Positions 37,737 through 63,179 of a stretch of DNA of 64,000 nucleotides are shown here, piece after piece. The position numbers and the translations under genes were made by a program. Source of the stretch: Patescibacteria group bacterium (GTDB lineage: Bacteria > Patescibacteriota > Microgenomatia > UBA1406 > GWC2-37-13). The stretch covers positions 62,001 to 126,000 of the forward strand of contig BPJE01000001.1 of the NCBI GenBank assembly GCA_026004455.1, in the 5' to 3' direction. Under the pieces are notes generated by a model. The model had not been told where the DNA came from, did not search any database, and was given only the letters and a program-made list of their open reading frames with translations. Positions within the stretch are counted from its first letter, which is position 1; each line of letters starts with the position of its first letter.

Positions 37737-37808
37737 AGCGGGCGAAGGGAATTGAACCCTCTGTCTTCTCCTTGGCAAGGAGACGTTTTGCCGGTAAACT
37801 ACGCCCGC
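37737..37808 (-). tRNA. tRNA-Gly (GCC)
   Basis: Acceptor GCGGGCG/CGCCCGC with T73. Anticodon stem CTCCT/AGGAG and loop TGCCA flanked by T and A give GCC. T loop TTCAATT. First of four adjacent minus-strand tRNA genes in coordinate order. Confidence 0.93.
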
Positions 37809-37818
37809 AAAATTAAGG

Positions 37819-37890
37819 TGCGCTCGCTTGGATTCGAACCAAGGACTCCTACTTTATAAGAGTAGTGCTCTACCGCTGAGCTACGAGCGC
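37819..37890 (-). tRNA. tRNA-Ile (TAT)
   Basis: Acceptor GCGCTCG/CGAGCGC with A73. Anticodon stem CTACT/AGTAG and loop CTTATAA place TAT at positions 34-36, with T33 and A37. TAT reads AUA directly. Most bacteria instead read AUA with a CAU anticodon modified to lysidine by TilS, so this is an unusual tRNA. T arm CTTGG-TTCGAAT-CCAAG. All arms pair normally. Confidence 0.9.
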
Positions 37891-37943: not shown

Positions 37944-38015
37944 TGGACCGAAGGAGACTTGAACTCCCAACCTCTGCAATGCGAATGCAGCGCTCTGCCA
38001 TTGAGCTATCGGCCC
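37944..38015 (-). tRNA. tRNA-Ala (CGC)
   Basis: Acceptor GGGCCGA/TCGGTCC has the G3-U70 wobble pair, the alanine identity element, with A73. Anticodon stem CTGCA/TGCAG and loop TTCGCAT give CGC (reads GCG). Confidence 0.93.
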
Positions 38016-38019
38016 TTTG

Positions 38020-38091
38020 TGACTCTAGGAGGAATCGAACCTCCACTTTCAGTTCCGGAAACTGACGCTCTATCCTTTAAGCTATAGAGTC
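38020..38091 (-). tRNA. tRNA-Arg (CCG)
   Basis: Acceptor GACTCTA/TAGAGTC with A73. Anticodon stem TCAGT/ACTGA and loop TTCCGGA give CCG (reads CGG). T arm GGAGG-TTCGATT-CCTCC. Upstream (5') member of the four-tRNA block. Confidence 0.93.
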
Positions 38092-50844: not shown

Positions 50845-52006
50845 ATGAGAAAAATTAAAGTTATTATTTCTTTTATACTAATTTTCTTATCTTTTTTAAA
50901 TTTATTTTTATTGGTAAAAAATAACCTATCAAAATTTACAGAAAAATTTGATCCAAAAAAATATGAAGAAAAATACAATAAATCTCAATATGTAATTCCC
51001 AATTCAAAAAATCCAATCTCAGATGCAGAATTATATACCTATGCTGGATATAAATATATTATTGGCGAAAATCCTTTATATTTAAACGCGGAACATCTAA
51101 CAGTGGGAAAATACTTAATTGGTTTATCAACCGTTATATTTAACAACGAAAATTATTCAACACTCTTAATTATTATTTTATTTATTTTAATTTCATTTTA
51201 TTTAATCTTTAATTTAACAAAATCATTATTATTAAGCTCATTTTTAATTTTATTAATAACTTCTGACTCTTTTATAAAAGATGCTCTTATAAACGGTCCA
51301 TTACTCGATATATATCAATTATTTTTCTTTTTTATTAGTTTAATTTTTTTTATAAATTGGTATCAAAATAAAAAAATAATTTATTTAATATTTATAGGAA
51401 TCTTTTTAGGACTATTTAGTGCAAGTAAATTTTATTTAGCAACTTTAATCATTTTATGTACTTATTTTATTTTTTTAATAATAATTAAAAAAAATCCTCA
51501 AAAAAAATTTATTCTATTTAATTTCAATAATATTTTTTTTAATAATAACTTTTACTGCAACTTATACAATATCTTTTATAAAAGGATCAACAATTAATGA
51601 ATTTGTTAAATCTCAAAAATGGATTTTTAACTTTTGGCGATTTAACTCTTTAAATAATGTTGACGCAAAAGGTAATTTTTTAAATTTAATACTGTTTAAC
51701 AAATGGAAAATTTGGTGGGATAATAAACACTTTATAAATTATAAAGATTGGAATTTGTCTTGGCCTATTTTTTATATAACAGGTTTATTCATATCTATAT
51801 TAAATTTATTAAATTTTAAAAAACAAAAATCAAAATTAACCATATTAGATAATTATTTATTAATAATATCTATCTGGATTATTAATTATTCTTTTTATTT
51901 ATATTTTATCCCTATATATCCTAGATATTTAATCTTAATCTATCCTTTTATTTATTTTTTAATAATTTTATTTTTTGCTAAAATATTAGATAAAAAATAT
52001 GTTTGA
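50845..52006 (+). CDS. GT-C-type membrane protein (one +1 frameshift)
   Basis: From the ATG at 50845 the protein has an N-terminal helix and a first loop with SDAELYTYAGYKYIIGENPL, then LTVGKYLIGLSTVIF and several helices, stopping at 51597. Removing one A from the A8 run at about 51500-51507 carries the frame through QKNLFYLISIIFFLIITFTA to 52006, via YKDWNLSWPIFYITG. The corrected length is about 386 residues. The loop has DAE rather than the DE motif, so catalysis is uncertain. Very A/T-rich even for this window. It overlaps the next gene by 8 nt. Confidence 0.72.
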
Positions 52007-53540
52007 CATTTTTAAAATATTTAATTTTTTTAAAAAAAATTTTTCTAAAAAAGACATTTTGGTACTATTTTTAATTTTTGTTTTATTTTTTTCAACCCGA
52101 CTGATTAATCTTGATAAAAATCCGATTTTTTCTGATGAGGGAATTTATATCAGATGGGCAAAAACTGCTTGGCATGATCCATCTTGGCGATTTATATCTC
52201 TTACTGATGGTAAGCAACCTCTTCAAACTTGGGCGACAATCCCCTTTTTAAAACTTTTTCCTGACAATGCTCTTTTAGCTGGCAGACTTTTTGCTGTTTT
52301 TTCAGGATTATTTACTTTAATTGGAATATTTATCCTATCTTTTTATCTTTTTGGAAAAAACACTGCTTATATTGCCTCAATTTTATATATTATCACGCCA
52401 TTTTTTACTTTTTTTGACAGAATTGCCTTAGTTGATTCATTTGTTGCTGGTTCTTTTGTCTGGATGTTTTTTTTATCGCTTTTGTTAGCTAACACTTTAA
52501 GACTTGATATCTCTTTAATTTTTGGATTTTTCACAGGTATTTTTCTTCTTGCTAAATCATCAGTTTCACTTTTTATTATCAATTCTTTTTTTGGTTTTAT
52601 TAATATTTTTAAAGAAAAAAAAGATTTTTTTAAAAAAATCATTAATTATCTTATTCTTTTTTTCATCTCAATCTCTATTGCTTATCTAATATACAATATC
52701 CAAAGATTGTCGCCATATTTGCATTATGTTGCCGAAAAAAACAAAACTTTTGTTTTAACAATTGATGAGTTTTTGAAAAATCCTTTTCAAGTTTTTTGGC
52801 ATAATTTTCGCTACATCCCCTACTATGTCGCGCACAGTCTTGGATACACTAATTTTATATTAGGACTGCTTGGAATATACTTTATCTCTAAAAAAAATTT
52901 TTGGCTAGCTTCCTATATATTTTTTTGGATATTTGTCCCTTATATTCCAATGACTTTTTTTATGAAACTTTTATCAATTAGATATACAATATTTTTAGCA
53001 CCTCTTTTTATTGTCACAACTGCTTATTTTTTAAATCAAATATTTTCTAACAAAAAAAATCTTTTATTAAAATCTTTACTTGTTTTTCTTAGCTATCTTT
53101 TTACTTTTTATTTTACCTATACGATTATTTTTGCTTATGATAAAATCCCTTTTCCGCCTCTTCCTTCTCCCTCTGTTGATCGTGGCCAATACATTGAAGG
53201 CTGGCCAGCTGGTTGGGGAATAAAAGAGTTTATGGATTATGCTCGAGAAAAATCAAAAGAAAAACCAGTAGTGATCTTAGCTGAAGGTAATTTTGGTATG
53301 TCCGCTGATGTCTTAGATGTGTTTTTAAAAAGAAATGATAAGATCACTATCAAAGGCTATTGGCCATTAGACGAAAAAGTCTTGTTTGAAAATCAATCTC
53401 TTATTGAAAAAAATTATGTATTTGTTTTTTATTCTCATCAAGACAAATTTCCTCCTTCTTGGCCATTAAAACTTATCAAAAAAATCAAAAAACCCGGCAA
53501 CAAATCGCAGTTTTATATTTTTGAGTTAATTAAACAATAA
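51999..53540 (+). CDS. GT-C membrane glycosyltransferase (GT39 family)
   Basis: The 513-residue protein has a first helix, then KNPIFSDEGIYIRWAKTAWH with the classical DE motif, then DGKQPLQTWATIPFLKLFP, the second conserved GT39 region. About eleven helices and a soluble C-terminal domain (from about 400, with GQYIEGWPAGWGIKEFMDYA) follow. This is one of the most canonical GT39/PMT_2 members of the array. It overlaps the preceding gene by 8 nt and precedes the next by 1 nt. Confidence 0.88.
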   Translation: MFDIFKIFNFFKKNFSKKDILVLFLIFVLFFSTRLINLDKNPIFSDEGIYIRWAKTAWHDPSWRFISLTDGKQPLQTWATIPFLKLFPDNALLAGRLFAVFSGLFTLIGIFILSFYLFGKNTAYIASILYIITPFFTFFDRIALVDSFVAGSFVWMFFLSLLLANTLRLDISLIFGFFTGIFLLAKSSVSLFIINSFFGFINIFKEKKDFFKKIINYLILFFISISIAYLIYNIQRLSPYLHYVAEKNKTFVLTIDEFLKNPFQVFWHNFRYIPYYVAHSLGYTNFILGLLGIYFISKKNFWLASYIFFWIFVPYIPMTFFMKLLSIRYTIFLAPLFIVTTAYFLNQIFSNKKNLLLKSLLVFLSYLFTFYFTYTIIFAYDKIPFPPLPSPSVDRGQYIEGWPAGWGIKEFMDYAREKSKEKPVVILAEGNFGMSADVLDVFLKRNDKITIKGYWPLDEKVLFENQSLIEKNYVFVFYSHQDKFPPSWPLKLIKKIKKPGNKSQFYIFELIKQ

Positions 53541-53541
53541 T

Positions 53542-55125
53542 ATGGAATTTTTAATACTTTTTATTTTATCTTTAATACCTCGATTAATATTTCTTTTTTA
53601 TGGTATGCCTTCAATTACTCATGATGAAGCTGATTATTTTCTAAATAGTTATTTTTTAGCAAAAACTGGGTCTGATTTTTGGAATAACAAATTTTTTTTA
53701 ACAAGTGGAATATTAAATTCAACTGGCGGTATACCAGTTTATTTTAATTCAATTTTTTATTTTTTTTTAGAAAAAAATATCGTTGTTAGTAGATTAATTT
53801 ATGGATTGATGAGTGTTTTTACACCAATAATAATTTATTTAATTGTTAAAAAAATTACTAAAAACAGATTTTTATCATCTATTACATTTTTAATATTTAA
53901 TTTTTCCCCTTGGTATCTACATCTCTCTACTCAAGCTGCCGTAGAACAAATACCAAGTTTATTTTTATTTTTTCTTGGTTTTTATCTTTTTCTTTTTAAT
54001 AATATCTTTATCAAATTACTTTCTTTTATTTCTTTATTCTTATCATTTCATTCTTATATGGGAATCAAATTAGTTATGCCTTTTTATATTTTCATCATCC
54101 AATTAACAAAATTAATAATTGATAAAAAAAAGATAGAAATAAAATTATTATTAAAATTAATTTTCATAACAGCAATAATTTACATTGTTTTTATAACTCC
54201 AATAATTATTAATAATAAAAATTTACTTATTCGTGCTAACGATACGTTAACATTTTTAAATAAAAATTATTTAGAAAATAAAGTTTGGTATGAAAGATTA
54301 ACTTTTAATGGCCCTGAAATTTTAAAAAAGATTTATTCAAATAAACTTACTGTGATAATAAAGGATTTTTTAGAAAAATATTTTGAAATATTTAATTTAA
54401 AAATATTATTTATTAATGGTGATCCTCACGCTATTTATGGATCAGGATATAGCTTATTTTATTTCCCTTTAATATTTTTCTTCATTTATGGATTTATTCA
54501 ATCATTAACAAATTTTAAAAATTTTAATTTAATAATAATTATTTTTATTTTATTTAGCCCTTTTAGTATAGCATTCAACAATCAACCAGCCACAATAGCT
54601 TTGAGAGCTTACCCTCTTTTATTTGCTTACAGTTATTTAATCGCATTAGGAATAGAATCATTTTTAAAAAATAATTTAAAATTAAAAACATTCTATTCTT
54701 ATCTAATCTACCTATTTATATTTTTCTCGTTTATTAACTATATTTTAATTTACAATTTTAGACTAAAAATAATAAATTCTGAACAATGGCATTTAGGTGA
54801 AAAAAAACTTTTTGAAAAAGTATTAAATAAAAAAACAAATCAAACAATTTATATTGTTAACAATGAACCAAAAGAGACTTTTATGTTATTTTCTTTTTAT
54901 CATTTAGATGATGCTTTTTTAATTAAAAATAAACTTCAAAAAAATGATTATACCTACAAAAACTTAGTCTTTACTGATAAAAAAATTTCAGAATTAAAAA
55001 ATGGAGTTATATTAATTAAAAGAGGTATTCAAGATGTTGATAAATTAATTGAAAATAAATTAATTTTTTATCAACCTTATCTAGAAGCTTCCGATAAAAG
55101 TGGAATTTTGTATTATAAACTTTAA
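53542..55125 (+). CDS. GT-C membrane glycosyltransferase (GT39-like)
   Basis: The 527-residue protein has MPSITHDEADYFLNSYFLAK (DE motif) after the first helix, then STGGIPVYFNSIFYF, about eleven helices, and a periplasmic tail from about 420 (QWHLGEKKLFEKVLNKK; IYIVNNEPKETFML). It is very A/T-rich with many ATA codons by eye, unlike the gene at 51999. Its tail recalls those of GT39 enzymes with a C-terminal sugar- or substrate-binding part. 9-nt gap to the next gene. Confidence 0.82.
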   Translation: MEFLILFILSLIPRLIFLFYGMPSITHDEADYFLNSYFLAKTGSDFWNNKFFLTSGILNSTGGIPVYFNSIFYFFLEKNIVVSRLIYGLMSVFTPIIIYLIVKKITKNRFLSSITFLIFNFSPWYLHLSTQAAVEQIPSLFLFFLGFYLFLFNNIFIKLLSFISLFLSFHSYMGIKLVMPFYIFIIQLTKLIIDKKKIEIKLLLKLIFITAIIYIVFITPIIINNKNLLIRANDTLTFLNKNYLENKVWYERLTFNGPEILKKIYSNKLTVIIKDFLEKYFEIFNLKILFINGDPHAIYGSGYSLFYFPLIFFFIYGFIQSLTNFKNFNLIIIIFILFSPFSIAFNNQPATIALRAYPLLFAYSYLIALGIESFLKNNLKLKTFYSYLIYLFIFFSFINYILIYNFRLKIINSEQWHLGEKKLFEKVLNKKTNQTIYIVNNEPKETFMLFSFYHLDDAFLIKNKLQKNDYTYKNLVFTDKKISELKNGVILIKRGIQDVDKLIENKLIFYQPYLEASDKSGILYYKL

Positions 55126-55134
55126 AATTCACTT

Positions 55135-56679
55135 ATGAAAAAAATATTATTAAATACTTTTTCATTAATCATTTTTATTCTTATTTTATCACTTTCTTTT
55201 TATACTCACTATAATCTTAGATATTATTTACGTTTTGGAGATGAAGTTGGACATCTTTATTCTGGTCATTTAATTTTAAATAACAAAATACTTTATAAAG
55301 ATATTCAATTAAACCATCAACCAATTCCATATATATACAGCGCTATTATTGAAAAAATTGCCCAACCAGAAAATTTATATAAATATATTGGTTATCAAAG
55401 AATGTCGATTTTTATTTATAGTTTGTTTTGGAACATTATATATTTTATTTATTTTGGAAAAATTTCTCTTGTTTTTATATTTTTATTTGAGTTTTTAAAA
55501 CTTTTTTACTTAGGATTTCAAAATTTAGGAGAAACTTTTGCTGTTTATCCATTAATTTTTTTAATAGGAAGCATTTACAAAAACTATATCAATGAAAAAA
55601 CTACTTATTTTGACATTGTTCTTTATTCTTTCGCTAATTTCTTAGCTTTTTTTTCTTTAGCTCCTTTATGGCCAGCATTATTTTTCCTTTTTATTTTTAA
55701 ATTTATTCTTTTAAAAACAAAAAAAGAAAAAATAATCTTAATTATCACTTCAATATTTTTAATATCTATTCTCGGAATTTTTATTCCTTATTCAGATTAT
55801 TTTAGAGAGACAATATACTATAACTATAAATATTTTTTACCAAGTTTTAAACATAATCTAAATATCTTTCAATATTTGTTTTTTCCTTTTCAACCTTTCT
55901 TACCTCCTTATGATTTAATTAGTATCATAATTGGGTTATTTACAATAATTTTTGTTACCAATCTTTTCATAACTTCTAAAAAAAACAAAAAAATATTTAA
56001 AATTCTTATATTTTTTATTTTTATTATTTATCTTTTAAATACTCGTGATCCAATAATAAAATTTGATAAATTTCCAAAATTTCATATGCTTCCTTGGATT
56101 GGAGCATATTTAATCATTAATATTCTAACTCTAAAATATTTAGTTAAAAACAAAATAAAAATCGCAAAAATATTCATATTTTCTATATTGGTTATTACCT
56201 GTTATTTAATACTTTTTAAAAACGGAGATTATTATAAAAAAAGAGATTTTATGAATGATTTTTATATAAATTATTCTGAATCAGAAAAGTATGGACGAAT
56301 AATAAAGGCATTAAAAAATAACCAAGATAAATTACTTGTTATTCCAAATGACCCTTTAATTTATTATTTAACAAATATCAAACCGCCAATAAGAATTAAT
56401 GAATATTATTTATGGACTCAAAAAATACCTGATGATAATAAAAAATTAATTAATCTTTTTAAAAATTCACCACCAGAATTTGTTGTTAATATTGGAAATA
56501 CAAACGGACTTGATAAAAATAATTTTTTAGAAAAATACGTTTTAGATAACTTAGAAAAAAATTATATTGTATTGAAGCATTTAAATGAAAATTCAAAACT
56601 CTATATTCAAAAAGATAAAATTAAGCAAATTAACGATTATCAATTAAAACAAATGAAAGATTTACTTTTTAGCTTCTAA
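55135..56679 (+). CDS. GT-C-like membrane glycosyltransferase (514 residues)
   Basis: The first loop YLRFGDEVGHLYSGHLILNN contains a DE pair, then LYKDIQLNHQPIPYIYSAII, which resembles the KQPLxxY-type second motif of GT39. About ten helices follow, with a C-terminal soluble part (from about 390, including NIGNTNGLDKN). The divergence from classical GT39 sequences is larger than for its neighbours. It lies 2 nt before the next gene. Confidence 0.78.
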   Translation: MKKILLNTFSLIIFILILSLSFYTHYNLRYYLRFGDEVGHLYSGHLILNNKILYKDIQLNHQPIPYIYSAIIEKIAQPENLYKYIGYQRMSIFIYSLFWNIIYFIYFGKISLVFIFLFEFLKLFYLGFQNLGETFAVYPLIFLIGSIYKNYINEKTTYFDIVLYSFANFLAFFSLAPLWPALFFLFIFKFILLKTKKEKIILIITSIFLISILGIFIPYSDYFRETIYYNYKYFLPSFKHNLNIFQYLFFPFQPFLPPYDLISIIIGLFTIIFVTNLFITSKKNKKIFKILIFFIFIIYLLNTRDPIIKFDKFPKFHMLPWIGAYLIINILTLKYLVKNKIKIAKIFIFSILVITCYLILFKNGDYYKKRDFMNDFYINYSESEKYGRIIKALKNNQDKLLVIPNDPLIYYLTNIKPPIRINEYYLWTQKIPDDNKKLINLFKNSPPEFVVNIGNTNGLDKNNFLEKYVLDNLEKNYIVLKHLNENSKLYIQKDKIKQINDYQLKQMKDLLFSF

Positions 56680-56681
56680 TT

Positions 56682-58361
56682 ATGAAAAAACTAATTTTAT
56701 TTTTTTGTATTATATTTATAATTCTTTTTCTTGGAAAAGATTTGCTGCCAACTAATGATTATTTTTTTACCTTTCATGATGAGACTCAACCAGCACGGAT
56801 TCAACAATTTGTGATTAATTTAAAAAATCTTCAAATTCCCCCTCGAATTGCTCCAGATTTTTCATTCAAACTAGGATTTCCTGTTTTTAACTATTATGCG
56901 CCAACTTCATACTGGATCACATCTTTTTTTCATTTAATTGGTTTTGATGTTTTAACCTCTTTAAAAATATCATTCATATTAGCAATTGTTATTGGTTTTA
57001 TTTCTTTTTATCTTTTATCATCTTTATTTTTTAATTTTAATCAAAGCATTTTTGCTAGTTTGCTTTATGTTTCCTCTCCTTGGATAGCAGTTGAAATATT
57101 TGTCAGAGGCAACCTTGCTGAAATTTGGTTCATAGCACTCTTACCTTTATCTTTTTGGGCATTATATAAAAATTCAATAATCCAATCGCCTAAATTATAT
57201 GTTTTAACAATAATCATCTTAGGGGCAACATTAACTACTCATAATGTTTTATCATTGGTCTCCTTACCAATCTTTATTATTTTTATTCTTATTAACAAAA
57301 ATAAAATTAAAAATTTTTCTGCGTTATTTTTAAGTTTATTATTAAACGCTTATTTTTTTATACCAGCAATTTTAGAGATAAATCAAACTCATGCAACTTC
57401 AATATCAAAACATACTAATTATGCTTCTCATTTACTTTGTCTTTGGCAGCTTTGGTCAGCTCCTTTTTGGGGTTATGGTGGTTCTGGACCTGATTGTATA
57501 AATGACGGAATGAGTTTTATGCTTGGTAAACCTCAAATAATTTTTTCTTTAATTGGTCTGGTTTTTATCACTTATTCAATATTTAAAAAAAACAAAAATT
57601 ATAAAAACTTTATTTTTTTTACACTATTAACAACAATCTTCGTTTATTTAACCACTTTTCTTTCTTATCCAATATCAAAATTTTTTAATAATTATTTAGG
57701 TTTTTTTCAATTTCCTTGGCGATTTTTAGCTTTTGTTTTAATAGGTTTAAACTTTATCTCTTCATCAATTTATTTTCCTAAAAAAATAAAATCTTTTGAA
57801 AAAATACTGATTATTTTAGGTCTGATAATAGTAATATATAACTCAAAATTCTTTACTAAAGACAAAATATCAAACAATAAATTGAATTATGATTTATTAA
57901 ATCCTTCTTTTATATCAAACATGGCTTCTTACAAAGTCGCCGAATATCTTCCTAAAACAGTTGATTATAAAACATGGCTTAAATATGAGCCAAAAAAACA
58001 AGAAAAATACTTAATTGATAAAACGCTCAATGATAATTCATTTGTTCACTATATTGACAGTCAAAAATCAGCAAAAATTATTGAAAACAAAGAATTTTAT
58101 AAAAAAGCAATTATTGAAAAAAATAAACAAATAATAATTAATATCTCATATATGCCTTATTGGAAAATTATCATTAATGATAAAGAATATATTCCAAAAA
58201 AATTTGATAAATTAGGTAGACCAATAATAGATATTAAAAATAATTCTCAACTAATAATAAAATACGAGCAAACACCAATTGAAAAATTATCCAATATAAT
58301 TAGTTTATTGACCTTTGTTTATCTTTTATTTTTATTAAAAACACCCAAAGAAGTTTTTTAA
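56682..58361 (+). CDS. PTPS-related / YfhO-like membrane protein (putative GT-C)
   Basis: The 559-residue protein begins with a helix and a long first loop: TNDYFFTFHDETQPARIQQF, then PPRIAPDFSFKLGFPVFNYY and APTSYWITSFFHLIGFDV. These match the family annotated as 6-pyruvoyl-tetrahydropterin-synthase-related membrane proteins. About ten helices and a soluble C-terminal domain (420-530, MPYWKIIINDKEYIPKKFDK) follow. The name reflects a historical link; the topology (acidic HDE loop) suggests a GT-C enzyme. It is followed 2 nt later by the flippase gene. Confidence 0.8.
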   Translation: MKKLILFFCIIFIILFLGKDLLPTNDYFFTFHDETQPARIQQFVINLKNLQIPPRIAPDFSFKLGFPVFNYYAPTSYWITSFFHLIGFDVLTSLKISFILAIVIGFISFYLLSSLFFNFNQSIFASLLYVSSPWIAVEIFVRGNLAEIWFIALLPLSFWALYKNSIIQSPKLYVLTIIILGATLTTHNVLSLVSLPIFIIFILINKNKIKNFSALFLSLLLNAYFFIPAILEINQTHATSISKHTNYASHLLCLWQLWSAPFWGYGGSGPDCINDGMSFMLGKPQIIFSLIGLVFITYSIFKKNKNYKNFIFFTLLTTIFVYLTTFLSYPISKFFNNYLGFFQFPWRFLAFVLIGLNFISSSIYFPKKIKSFEKILIILGLIIVIYNSKFFTKDKISNNKLNYDLLNPSFISNMASYKVAEYLPKTVDYKTWLKYEPKKQEKYLIDKTLNDNSFVHYIDSQKSAKIIENKEFYKKAIIEKNKQIIINISYMPYWKIIINDKEYIPKKFDKLGRPIIDIKNNSQLIIKYEQTPIEKLSNIISLLTFVYLLFLLKTPKEVF

Positions 58362-58363
58362 TT

Positions 58364-59797
58364 ATGGAAAATTTTAAAAAAAATACCATTGTTTCTACCT
58401 TATCGCTCTTTTTTCAGTCTGGTTATTCTGCTTTTTTAGGATTTGTTGCTAATTTAGTCTTAACAATCCTTCTCTCTCCAAAAATTTTTGGAATTTATTT
58501 TACAGTTTTATCAATTATTGCTATTTTAAATTATTTTTCCGATATTGGACTGGCTGCCTCACTTGTTCAAAAAAAAGAAATTAAAGAAAAAGAAATCGCT
58601 ACTGTTTTTACATTTCAACAAATTTTAATCTTCACTATCATTATCATTGGCTTTTTATCAACTAATTTTATTGTTCGATTCTATCAACTATCAGTTGAAG
58701 GAAAATATCTTTATTGGGCGCTTCTTTTATCTTTTTTTCTTTCTTCCCTCAAAACAATTCCTTCAATTTTGCTTGAAAGAAAAATCGAGTTTCAGAAAAT
58801 AGTTTTTGTTCAAATAATCGAAAATACTTTTTTTTATTTAACAGTAATTATTTTAGCAATTCTTAATTTTGGTTTAAAAAGCTTTATCTGGGCAGTGATT
58901 TTTAGAGCTATTGTTGGTGTTTTACTAATCTATAAAATTTCACCTTGGAAAATAAGTTTAACAATTGACTTTCCTACTCTTAAAAATCTTCTTTCTTTTG
59001 GTGTTCCATTTCAACTATCGTCATTTTTAGCCCTTTTAAAAGATGATTTGATGACTTTGTATTTAGGAAAAACTTTAGGATTTCAAACTTTAGGATATTT
59101 AGGTTGGGCAAAAAAATGGGCTGAAGCAGTCTTAAGAATTATTATGGACTCATTAAGTAGAGTGCTTTTCCCAGTGTTTTCAAGAGTTCAAGAAGAAAAA
59201 GAACGATTAAAAATATTGGTCGAAAAAATTATTTATTATCAATCTTTAATTATTATCCCGGTTATTTTTGGCATGATTTTAGTTATGGAAAAAATCGTTT
59301 TTTTAATTCCAAAATACTCTAAATGGCAGGTGGCTTTACCTTATTTTTACTTATTTTCAATCTCAGCTCTTTTTTCTTCTTACTCTACTCCATTTATCAA
59401 TCTTTTAAATGGTCTAGGCAAAGTAAAACTAAGTCTTTATTTTATGATCTTTTGGACAGCTGGTACATGGATTTTAGTGCCTTTTTTAACAAAAATATAT
59501 GGTGGAATTGGCTTTCCAATCACCTTGCTAATTTTATCATCATCGTTTTTTATTGTCCTTTTAACAGCAAAAAAAATCGTCAATTTTTCTTTTTTAAAAA
59601 ATTTTTATCCTTTTTTGATATCAACTTTGATTTTTTTTATTGCCGAAAAGTTTTTGCCATTTGAAAAAAATAACTTTATCAATTTGTTTATGATAATTTT
59701 TAGCAGTATAATAATATATTTAATATCGCTTTTAGTAATTTTTAAAATTAATGTTTTTCAAGACCTAAAAAGTTTATGGAAAAAATCACCGCAATAA
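58364..59797 (+). CDS. Oligosaccharide flippase (Wzx/RfbX family)
   Basis: The 477-residue MATE/MOP-superfamily protein has about twelve to fourteen helices. Its Wzx-type motifs include SGYSAFLGFVANLVLTILLS, LSPKIFGIYFTVLSIIAILN, FSDIGLAASLVQKKEI and GFQTLGYLGWAKKWAEAVLR. It would flip lipid-linked oligosaccharides made by the GT2/GT4 enzymes to the outside, where the GT-C enzymes could act; this is inference from context. It overlaps the next gene by 22 nt. Confidence 0.92.
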   Translation: MENFKKNTIVSTLSLFFQSGYSAFLGFVANLVLTILLSPKIFGIYFTVLSIIAILNYFSDIGLAASLVQKKEIKEKEIATVFTFQQILIFTIIIIGFLSTNFIVRFYQLSVEGKYLYWALLLSFFLSSLKTIPSILLERKIEFQKIVFVQIIENTFFYLTVIILAILNFGLKSFIWAVIFRAIVGVLLIYKISPWKISLTIDFPTLKNLLSFGVPFQLSSFLALLKDDLMTLYLGKTLGFQTLGYLGWAKKWAEAVLRIIMDSLSRVLFPVFSRVQEEKERLKILVEKIIYYQSLIIIPVIFGMILVMEKIVFLIPKYSKWQVALPYFYLFSISALFSSYSTPFINLLNGLGKVKLSLYFMIFWTAGTWILVPFLTKIYGGIGFPITLLILSSSFFIVLLTAKKIVNFSFLKNFYPFLISTLIFFIAEKFLPFEKNNFINLFMIIFSSIIIYLISLLVIFKINVFQDLKSLWKKSPQ

Positions 59798-60645
59798 TTG
59801 TTGCTAAAAATCATCCTCCTTATATTTTAAAAACCATTTCCTCAATTGAAGATTTTGTCAAAGAAATTGTTATTGTTGATATAGGTATTGATAATAAATT
59901 AATTAATACTTTAAAAAAAAATAAAAAAATAAGTATTCATAAAATCAACAAAGATATTCAATACGTTGAGTTAATTCGAGAAAAAGTAAAAAATCTTGCA
60001 AAAACTGAATATATTCTTTTTCTTGACCCAGATGAGGTTATTCAACCAAAATTAAAAACATTAATTAAATCAAATCTAAATAATTATGATTATTTTAAAA
60101 TTCCAAGAAAAAACATCATCTTTGATAAATGGATAAAACATAGTCGCTGGTGGCCTGATTATCAAATAAGACTTTTTAAAAAAGATAAAGTTTTTTGGCC
60201 GGAAATAATTCATAGTCAACCAAAAATAATTGGTAAAGGTTTAGAAATTGAAGCTGATGAAAATTTAGCAATTATTCACTATAACTATCAAAATTTAGAT
60301 CAATACCTTGAAAAAGCTCAAAGATATGCTAAATCAGAAGCACAACAATTAATAAAAGAAGATAAAATTTTTACATTTAAAGATGTTATTAATAAAGCAT
60401 TAAATGAGTTTATTAGTCGTTATTTTGCTGATTTAGGTTATAAAGATGGTATTCATGGTTTTATCCTTTCATTTTTACAAATGTTTTATTATTTTTTAGT
60501 TTATTTTTATTATTTAGAATCCAAAAAGTTTACAACTGATGAAAATATCAATCCTAAGGAATATTTTAAACAAGGACTAAAACAATCGCTTCACTGGGAA
60601 ACAAACAAATCATTAAAAGAAAAAATTGTTAAAAAAATCTTGTAA
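59776..60645 (+). CDS. Glycosyltransferase family 2 (WaaE/KdtX-like)
   Basis: The 289-residue GT-A protein has ITAIIVAKNHPPYILKTISS, a metal site in EYILFLDPDEVIQPKL, and KHSRWWPDYQIRLFKKDKVF, the layout of WaaE/KdtX-type lipopolysaccharide core glucosyltransferases. A helical C-terminal part with one hydrophobic stretch (GFILSFLQMFYYFLVYFYYL) suggests membrane association. Its first 22 nt overlap the flippase gene, so the two are coupled. Confidence 0.88.
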   Translation: MEKITAIIVAKNHPPYILKTISSIEDFVKEIVIVDIGIDNKLINTLKKNKKISIHKINKDIQYVELIREKVKNLAKTEYILFLDPDEVIQPKLKTLIKSNLNNYDYFKIPRKNIIFDKWIKHSRWWPDYQIRLFKKDKVFWPEIIHSQPKIIGKGLEIEADENLAIIHYNYQNLDQYLEKAQRYAKSEAQQLIKEDKIFTFKDVINKALNEFISRYFADLGYKDGIHGFILSFLQMFYYFLVYFYYLESKKFTTDENINPKEYFKQGLKQSLHWETNKSLKEKIVKKIL

Positions 60646-60663
60646 ATCTTATATATAAATATT

Positions 60664-61476
60664 ATGATCGGATTAATTACTGTTAATTACAATCAATATC
60701 AGATGACAAAAGATTTTTTAGATTCTGTTGCTACTGTTGATAATACTAAAAATCTTAAAGTTTACATTGCTGATGTTTCAACAAAAAAACAACCATTTAA
60801 AATTGGCAATTACCCAATGGAAATAATTAATATTAATCTTCCTAATAAAGGTTATGCTTTTGGAATAAATGAAGGAACAAAATATTTTCTTAAACAAGGC
60901 TTAAATAAATTTTGCGCTATTAATAACGATATTTATTTTAATAAAAATTTTGCAATTGAGGCTGAAAAAACTTTTCAAAAAGCTAATATTTTTGGTGGAA
61001 AAATTTACTATGCTCCTGGATATGAATATCATAAAACTAGATATGCTAAAAAAGATTTAGGAAAAGTCATCTGGTATGCTGGAGGAGAAATCGATTGGAA
61101 AAATGTTTTTACTAATCATCGAGGCGTTGATGAGGTTGATAATGGTCAATATGATAAATTTGAAAAAACAGATTTTATTACTGGTTGTATGCTTTTTTTT
61201 AATAAAAAAGTTATTGATAAAATTGGTTTTTGGGATGAAAAATATTTTTTATACTTTGAAGATACTGATTTTTGCGAAAGAGCCAAACAAGCTGGATTTA
61301 CTCTTTATTATAATCCAAAGATTATTATTTATCATAAAGTTTCTCAATCAACAGGAGGCAGTGGCTCATCAATTCATACAAAATATCAACGGAAAAACAG
61401 ATTAATTTTTGGTCTAAAATACGCTCCTTTAAAAACAAAAATTCATTTAATTAAAAATTATATTTTGGGAAAATAA
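60664..61476 (+). CDS. Glycosyltransferase family 2 (rhamnosyltransferase/WbbL-like)
   Basis: The 270-residue GT-A protein has GLITVNYNQYQMTKDFLDSV, NKGYAFGINEGTKYF, CAINNDIYFNKN (DxD-like NND), FITGCMLFFNKKVIDKIGFW, and YFLYFEDTDFCERAKQAGFT with IIIYHKVSQSTGG. These are hallmarks of WbbL/RfbF-type rhamnosyltransferases. The acceptor is unknown. Its stop overlaps the next start by 1 nt (TAATG). Confidence 0.9.
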   Translation: MIGLITVNYNQYQMTKDFLDSVATVDNTKNLKVYIADVSTKKQPFKIGNYPMEIININLPNKGYAFGINEGTKYFLKQGLNKFCAINNDIYFNKNFAIEAEKTFQKANIFGGKIYYAPGYEYHKTRYAKKDLGKVIWYAGGEIDWKNVFTNHRGVDEVDNGQYDKFEKTDFITGCMLFFNKKVIDKIGFWDEKYFLYFEDTDFCERAKQAGFTLYYNPKIIIYHKVSQSTGGSGSSIHTKYQRKNRLIFGLKYAPLKTKIHLIKNYILGK

Positions 61477-63179
61477 TGAATTTTTGGCAAAAATTATTAC
61501 TTATATTTGTAATAATAATTGGTTTCTTTATAAGAATTTATAAAATAAATGAGATACCATATGGCCTACTACCTGATGAAGCAAGTATTGGATATAACGC
61601 TTATTCAGTTTTAAAAACAGGAAAAGATGAATATGGAATTAAATTTCCTATAATTTTTAAAGCTTTTGGTGATCAAAAACAACCAATATACATTTATTTA
61701 ACAATCCCTTTTATAAAAATATTTGGTTTAACAAATTTTTCTGTAAGAATTTTATCTGTAATCTCAGGTACTTTATTAATTTTTATTATTTTTAAATTAT
61801 TAAGACTATTAAAATTTAATATCTATTTATCAATATTAGGTAGTTTTATAACAGCAATTAGTCCGTGGATGATTATTTTAAGTAGATTTTCTTATGAATC
61901 TAATGTCGCTTTATTATTTTTTTTAAGTGGAATTTATTTTTTAATAAAAGATAAATCTAAACTAGATTTAATATTTTCAATATTATTTTTAAGTTTAACG
62001 TTTTTTACTTATATTAGTTTTAGATTGATCACCCCACTAATAACTTTTTTAATAATCGTATTAATAAATAAAAAAAATAAAAAATTATTATTATTTTTCC
62101 TTATATTCTTTTTTTTATTTTTATTTTTATTAAAGATGGAAAATAATTCTTCAAATTTAGCAAGATTTAATCAAATAACAAATACAACTGCTCAAGGATT
62201 AGTTTTAGAAATAAATGAATATAGAAATTTTTGTTCTAATTATTTACCAACAAAAATTTGTTATGCAAATGCAAATAAATTAATATTTTTCACAAGAGAA
62301 TTTATATATAGATTCATAAAAAGTATTTCTTTTGATTACTTATTTTTATATGGAGATAATGAAGCTAAATATATAAATATTGACCATTTTGGATTAATAC
62401 CAATATTTTTATTACCTTTTTATATTTTAGGATTTGTAAAAATTATTGATGAATTATTTAAATTAAAATTTAATCATATAAATTTGTTTATAATAATAGG
62501 CTTAATCATAACACCAATTCCAAATATATTAGTAAGTGATCCACAAAAAATAAGATTATCAGCCCTTTATCCTTTTGTTTGTTTATTAATAATATATGGA
62601 TTTCAATTTATTTTTGAGAAAATAAAAAAAATAAATTATTTTATTTTATATAACTTTATTATTTTATTATTTTGTCTTTATGGAATATTTTTAACAATAA
62701 ACTTTCTTTTTATTCATATAAATAAATATGAAATTAGTTATTATAATCATGTTAGAAAACTTGCAGAATATATAATTAAACAAGACAAAAATAATATTTA
62801 TTTAATAAGAAATTTTCCTGAATTTCCCATAATTTATGCTTTCTATAAAAAAATTGATCCTATTTTATTTCAAAAACAAACAATAAGAAAAAAATCGGAT
62901 AATATTGGTTTTTCTCATATTTTTAAAACAAATAATATAATCATGACTGAAAAAAGTATTGATGAAATATATTGTTATTTAAAAGAAAAAAAATTATTAA
63001 GTAAAACAAACTATTATTATGTTATTAATGAAAATCTAATTGATAATAAAAAAATATTAAAATCAGAAAAAATAATTTATTCAACCAATAGTTCATTAAA
63101 ATTAATATATGTTTTTAATTTAAATAAAATTAATAATAAATCGGTTGATTGCTCTTATATTAAAAATTTAAGTTTTTAA
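61476..63179 (+). CDS. GT-C membrane glycosyltransferase (GT39/PMT_2 family)
   Basis: The 567-residue protein begins NFWQKLLLIFVIIIGFFIRI. The highly canonical first loop is PYGLLPDEASIGYNAYSVLK then TGKDEYGIKFPIIFKAFGDQ and KQPIYIYLTIPFIKIFG, the full GT39 signature with DE and the QPxYxY motif. About eleven helices and a soluble tail (from about 420) follow. Codon use is strongly skewed to ATA/AGA/TTA by eye, beyond several neighbours. 15 nt separate it from the next gene, whose N-terminus (MNFWQK) is nearly identical. Confidence 0.9.
   Translation: MNFWQKLLLIFVIIIGFFIRIYKINEIPYGLLPDEASIGYNAYSVLKTGKDEYGIKFPIIFKAFGDQKQPIYIYLTIPFIKIFGLTNFSVRILSVISGTLLIFIIFKLLRLLKFNIYLSILGSFITAISPWMIILSRFSYESNVALLFFLSGIYFLIKDKSKLDLIFSILFLSLTFFTYISFRLITPLITFLIIVLINKKNKKLLLFFLIFFFLFLFLLKMENNSSNLARFNQITNTTAQGLVLEINEYRNFCSNYLPTKICYANANKLIFFTREFIYRFIKSISFDYLFLYGDNEAKYINIDHFGLIPIFLLPFYILGFVKIIDELFKLKFNHINLFIIIGLIITPIPNILVSDPQKIRLSALYPFVCLLIIYGFQFIFEKIKKINYFILYNFIILLFCLYGIFLTINFLFIHINKYEISYYNHVRKLAEYIIKQDKNNIYLIRNFPEFPIIYAFYKKIDPILFQKQTIRKKSDNIGFSHIFKTNNIIMTEKSIDEIYCYLKEKKLLSKTNYYYVINENLIDNKKILKSEKIIYSTNSSLKLIYVFNLNKINNKSVDCSYIKNLSF

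Follow-up and report, generated by a model that had tools for sequence, protein, structure and literature searches.

A tRNA-Ile(UAU) gene as the likely sole reader of AUA codons in a Microgenomates-type Patescibacterium without detectable TilS

The DNA analyzed here (the window, 64,000 nucleotides, C1:62001-126000 of the source genome G000) belongs to a Patescibacteria genome of 895 kb in 5 contigs, which is 92% complete and has a GC content of 27.5%. Eight tRNA genes lie in the window, and one cluster of them reads Arg(CCG)-Ala(CGC)-Ile(UAU)-Gly(GCC) on the minus strand (Table 1). ARAGORN predicted the isoleucine gene as tRNA-Ile(tat) at 37817-37890, and Infernal aligned it over the full RF00005 model (1-71) with 73.9 bits, an E value of 2.6e-14 and 0 broken pairs, which is the top tRNA score in the window and rank 2 of 46 in the genome. 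The anticodon loop has 7 bases, CUUAUAA, with UAU at positions 34-36; the preliminary description had read the loop in the same way (CTTATAA, TAT at 34-36), and ARAGORN concurs.

Table 1. Features of the tRNA cluster, numbered from the first nucleotide of the window
Feature	Position	Strand	Evidence
tRNA-Arg(CCG), first gene of cluster	38020..38091	minus	ARAGORN + Infernal
tRNA-Ala(CGC), cluster member	37944..38015	minus	ARAGORN + Infernal
tRNA-Ile(UAU), 72 nt with A73, CCA unencoded	37819..37890	minus	ARAGORN + Infernal RF00005
Anticodon UAU (ATA on the plus strand)	37856..37858	minus	Sequence reading + ARAGORN anticodon position 33
tRNA-Gly(GCC), next gene of cluster	37737..37808	minus	ARAGORN + Infernal

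AUA is a codon in regular use. ATA occurs 25.7 times per 1000 codons. Its share of Ile codons is 24% in the whole genome and 23% in the window, and the codon was found in 672 of the 679 genes of at least 150 aa. The preliminary description had called ATA frequent, above all in glycosyltransferase genes, which agrees with the counts: the ATA-densest genes of the window lie at 50845-63179 and are PMT_2-type membrane glycosyltransferase-like ORFs or their unassigned neighbours.

ARAGORN and the covariance model agreed on a set of 46 tRNAs, most with CCA unencoded, covering all 20 amino acids. Isoleucine is served by one GAU and one UAU tRNA, which have C4-G69, U12-A23, A37, A38 and A73 in common. 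The isoleucine determinants of Escherichia coli include C4-G69 and position 12 (PMC9976931). Among 81 class and phylum loci, the 78 UAU tRNAs have C4-G69 in 60 cases, U12 in 75 and A73 in 76, and C4-G69 was found in none of the 15 CAU tRNAs from those loci. One weak intron-bearing candidate, a tRNA-Pro(ggg) with a 31-base intron, was judged spurious.

Only two CAU tRNAs are present in the 46-tRNA set, one initiator-like (C1:256459-256530, minus strand) and one elongator-like (C3:13752), and a third CAU tRNA that could serve as tRNA-Ile2(CAU) was not found in it. One might suppose that one of the two is really Ile2, modified at C34 by a divergent or non-homologous enzyme that went unrecognised, and that the UAU tRNA plays a minor part; archaea do achieve the same end with TiaS, an enzyme unrelated to TilS (PMC11938285), and the initiator is atypical in having a U1-A72 pair. 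However, initiation and elongation require one CAU tRNA each and only two exist; one of them has the CGGGG/CCCCG acceptor and the D arm of the C1-type initiators of relatives, and the other has A4-U69 instead of the C4-G69 of the isoleucine tRNAs. Such a modification would also leave the occurrence of UAU in genomes without TilS unexplained, and we consider it highly improbable. As a separate observation, the initiator combines U1-A72 with an anticodon stem GGAGG/UCUCC, where initiators usually have a 1-72 mismatch and three G-C pairs; this form recurs in the related genome G121, and G060 and G076 retain C1.

Neither the TilS family (TIGR02432) nor the TilS/TtcA-type PP-loop domain (PF01171) matched anything in the genome, and both were positive in 14 of 14 control genomes; two TilS proteins of CPR bacteria used as local queries gave 0 matches as well. 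The PP-loop motif SGGxDS was absent from the ORFs of the genome, and PP-loop proteins with this motif, GuaA included, were not found in it. Because the genome is 92% complete, its own absences alone are weak evidence, and the case for absence rests on a survey of the class. The anticodon and T-arm pattern of the tRNA-Ile(UAU) matches named genomes of Levybacteria, Roizmanbacteria, Woesebacteria, Curtissbacteria, Daviesbacteria, Shapirobacteria and Chisholmbacteria, which we take to be Microgenomates lineages of Patescibacteria; by kinship and by this pattern match, the genome is assigned to a Microgenomates-type class.

TilS above the TIGR02432 cut-off was found in 0 of 281 genomes of the class, many of them 99-100% complete. 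The four best weak TIGR02432 matches in the class, considered as hidden TilS proteins, were PP-loop domains of GuaA (GMP synthase) according to NCBIfam. Two UAU tRNA patterns matched 132 and 196 of the 281 genomes, together 223 (about 218 after subtraction of five chance-looking matches), and left 58 without a match. Three genomes negative by the first pattern were read tRNA by tRNA: G121 (same family as the source genome, single contig), G076 (another family, single contig) and G060 (another family). The later pattern, that with 196 matches, does match G121 and G076; G060 is matched by neither. Each has a single Ile(GAT), a single Ile(TAT) and two CAT tRNAs, initiator-like and elongator-like, so these genomes fail as counter-examples: their UAU tRNAs have either the variant T-loop GGTCC or a loop with A38C. 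Since all three carry Ile(TAT), the patterns undercount, and UAU is very probably universal in the class.

These counts bear on the possibility that the UAU tRNA is an addition to a normal lysidine system, with tilS and tRNA-Ile2(CAU) encoded in sequence that the assembly lacks. The incompleteness of the genome leaves room for this, and Lactobacillus plantarum has both CAU and UAU Ile tRNAs, according to a title cited in PMC9976931. The class survey nevertheless refutes such redundancy for the class, the single-contig genomes G076 and G121 have only their two CAU tRNAs, and in the phylum as a whole TilS and UAU hardly ever occur together, as described below; for the source genome itself the chance of it is very slight. 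The suggestion that the organism has dispensed with TilS is thus supported, neither tilS nor a tRNA-Ile2(CAU) having been found in the genome, and the relatives, when checked, did not show a lack of conservation.

Across the phylum, TilS above the cut-off was detected in 96 of 380 genomes, none of them in the class. The scores are bimodal, with a best match of at least 123 bits in every positive genome and all other matches at 54 bits or less. Of the 380 genomes, 242 match the UAU pattern; 95 have TilS only, 241 UAU only, 1 both and 43 neither that was found (Fisher p 3e-54, a value that ignores shared ancestry and therefore overstates independence). TilS and UAU are near mutually exclusive across the phylum; the sole genome positive for both, G613, is so by pattern match. 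The statement in the preliminary description that UAU is rare holds for bacteria overall, according to the literature, but not for this phylum. A possible switch is seen in family f53, where TilS is present in almost every genome. In the three genomes of its genus g311, TilS is absent and the UAU pattern is matched in all three. This genus seems to have exchanged TilS for UAU inside an otherwise TilS-bearing family, a case that rests on pattern counts, as the UAU gene itself did not turn up in the 400 kb of these genomes that was examined.

The genome has a single isoleucyl-tRNA synthetase (IleRS), a protein of 991 aa encoded at L046:1480-4455 (G000:C3). The solved structures closest to it are the type 2 enzymes 8c8w and 1ile, followed by eukaryotic ones. 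A C-terminal CxxC was found in 0 of 29 IleRSs of the phylum that were examined; judged by this motif, neither TilS nor UAU lineages have the zinc module of type 1 enzymes. In Mycoplasma mobile, Arg865 of IleRS, at the position of E. coli Trp905, reportedly permits acceptance of UAU (Taniguchi and colleagues, 2013). We take this site to belong to the C-terminal region of type 1 IleRS, with no evident counterpart in the enzyme studied here. As the latter is of type 2 and has no zinc module at its C-terminus, the type 1 change of M. mobile is apparently not in use, and a look at IleRS for changes that accept UAU, which had been proposed, revealed none of the M. mobile kind.

In the IleRS tree, TilS and UAU lineages are intermixed. 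The g311 enzyme is sister to that of TilS-bearing G505 (72-74% identity), and its nesting among TilS-type relatives suggests that the switch needs little change in IleRS. IleRS as the key to the two states was considered and rejected, as no residue in the anticodon-binding part convincingly splits UAU from TilS lineages; within family f53, nine alignment columns differ cleanly, few of them in the C-terminal part, and the comparison includes only three UAU sequences. Type 2 IleRS is homologous to the eukaryotic cytosolic enzyme (PMC10485003).

Several features of the synthetases were noted in passing. In the IleRS of the source genome, GVHH replaces the class I HIGH motif (NNPMGVHHAWGRT) and MHKS replaces KMSKS. 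GXHH, the swapped motif tied to mupirocin hyper-resistance in IleRS2 (PMC10485003), also occurs in the IleRS of G121 (GAHH), G101, G038 and G031 and of TilS-bearing G294 and G335, and the related forms GLHH and GIHH occur in G337 and G432, respectively. In G012 (family f14, 99% complete), no match passed the family cut-off for IleRS; the best one has the position range and score of the second aminoacyl-tRNA synthetase in other genomes and is probably ValRS.

The state of U34 is relevant to how AUG would be spared. MnmG and MnmA gave 0 matches in the genome with single E. coli sequences as queries (identity confirmed by NCBIfam), and the MnmE query found only the GTPase Era. Unmodified U34 is thus the simplest expectation; U34 of the tRNA-Ile(UAU) is probably unmodified, and U34 hypermodification seems, from gene content, to be missing for all tRNAs of the genome. 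TsaD is present (362.7 bits), so that t6A37 is expected. In a Bacillus subtilis suppressor, unmodified UAU binds AUA strongly and AUG weakly (PMC4810244), and a strong preference for AUA with little misreading of AUG was described for unmodified UAU (PMC4810244; PMC5485724). Alternatively, U34 might be modified by another route, such as pseudouridine or a 5-substituent, and that modification would prevent misreading of AUG. Yeast tRNA-Ile has pseudouridine at 34 (PMC4810244), and the absence of Mnm genes rules out only one pathway; the suppressor data, together with the unmodified U34 of the M. mobile UAU tRNA (PMC4014445; PMC4013482), argue against it, and we regard this route as unlikely, though it deserves to be kept in mind.

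Taken together, these results lead us to propose, with a probability of roughly 0.9, that tRNA-Ile(UAU) is the only AUA-reading tRNA of this Microgenomates-type Patescibacterium, which has no TilS. The single type 2 IleRS would charge the tRNA directly, so that no lysidine would be needed for setting its identity. U34 would pair with the A of AUA in Watson-Crick geometry, and any reading of AUU or AUC by U34 would be harmless because both also mean Ile. AUG would be left to tRNA-Met(CAU), probably through competition and through weak U34-G pairing of an unmodified U34, the latter because MnmG, MnmA and MnmE, which would install cmnm5s2U, were not found. The tRNA is expected to carry t6A37. A broader reading, to which we give slightly less than even odds, is that TilS-free U34 reading of AUA is the majority state of Patescibacteria and may be ancestral in Microgenomates and several other CPR classes; type 2 IleRS would accept either a UAU or a lysidine-modified tRNA, and lineages could then switch without an overhaul of IleRS or a pathway for U34 hypermodification, as apparently happened in g311 of family f53.

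The canonical lysidine system of other Patescibacteria, TilS with tRNA-Ile2(CAU), does the same job of reading AUA as Ile; in contrast, the present genome has neither TilS nor a third CAU tRNA. Eukaryotic cytoplasmic tRNA-Ile(UAU), psi-A-psi in yeast, resembles the present case in that the IleRS reading UAU belongs to the same broad type, but eukaryotes also possess an inosine-34 Ile tRNA and add pseudouridine at 34. Loss of TilS with a C34-to-U34 change has been described in Mollicutes, and M. mobile has its own IleRS adapted for acceptance of UAU (PMC4014445). Like M. mobile and the hemoplasmas, the present genome is AT-rich and reduced, with a UAU gene, no tilS and no CAU Ile2, and its lack of detectable Mnm genes is consistent with the unmodified U34 of M. 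mobile. It differs in its type 2 IleRS, which lacks the zinc module at the C-terminus, and in the reach of the trait, which extends over a class and a large part of a phylum rather than a few species. By analogy, decoding in this genome would work as in M. mobile, but without the same IleRS change.

Replacement of tRNA-Ile2(CAU) by tRNA-Ile3(UAU) has been recorded in 17 genomes (PMC8450103) or 19 species (PMC4013482), including Mycoplasma, Bifidobacterium and Neorickettsia, and also in Nanoarchaeum equitans and Korarchaeum; the relevant passages of the two papers make no mention of Patescibacteria. As in Bifidobacterium and Neorickettsia, the CAU tRNA is here replaced and not supplemented; unlike those scattered cases, the trait is found in every genome of the class that was examined in detail. 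A search confined to open-access literature found no paper dealing with TilS or UAU in either Patescibacteria or Microgenomates. The decoding mode itself is known; its extent in Patescibacteria appears, provisionally, to be unreported.

In the literature, TilS figures as an essential enzyme that is conserved across bacteria and as a rule needed for decoding of AUA (PMC11938285; PMC12514573), and a 2025 paper still regards it as conserved among bacteria (PMC12514573). The class surveyed here lacks TilS entirely, and a directly matching tRNA takes its place across the phylum. In practice, TilS would be no target in these organisms. The phylum offers hundreds of natural comparisons for charging of UAU tRNAs and their exclusion from AUG, some of them between close relatives of the TilS and UAU types, as well as natural IleRS/tRNA pairs for codon-reassignment work, in which the M. 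mobile pair has been used so far. Annotation of tRNAs in CPR genomes should expect Ile(UAU).

Some minor observations concern the tRNA genes more generally. A contig binned as Desulfotomaculum sp. UBA9916 (L121, 38% GC) carries a Microgenomates-type UAU tRNA arm and is probably a misbinned Patescibacteria contig. By covariance model and ARAGORN, tRNA-Asn(GUU) was not found in the nearly complete genomes G121 and G060, in which it possibly has an intron or an unusual structure; it is present in the source genome and in G076. Arg(GCG) stands in the tRNA set of the source genome in place of the inosine-type Arg(ACG), which suggests that TadA is dispensable there as well. Finally, both U34 and C34 tRNAs are present for each of Lys, Glu, Gln and Leu(UUR), and for the CGN as well as the AGR codons of Arg.
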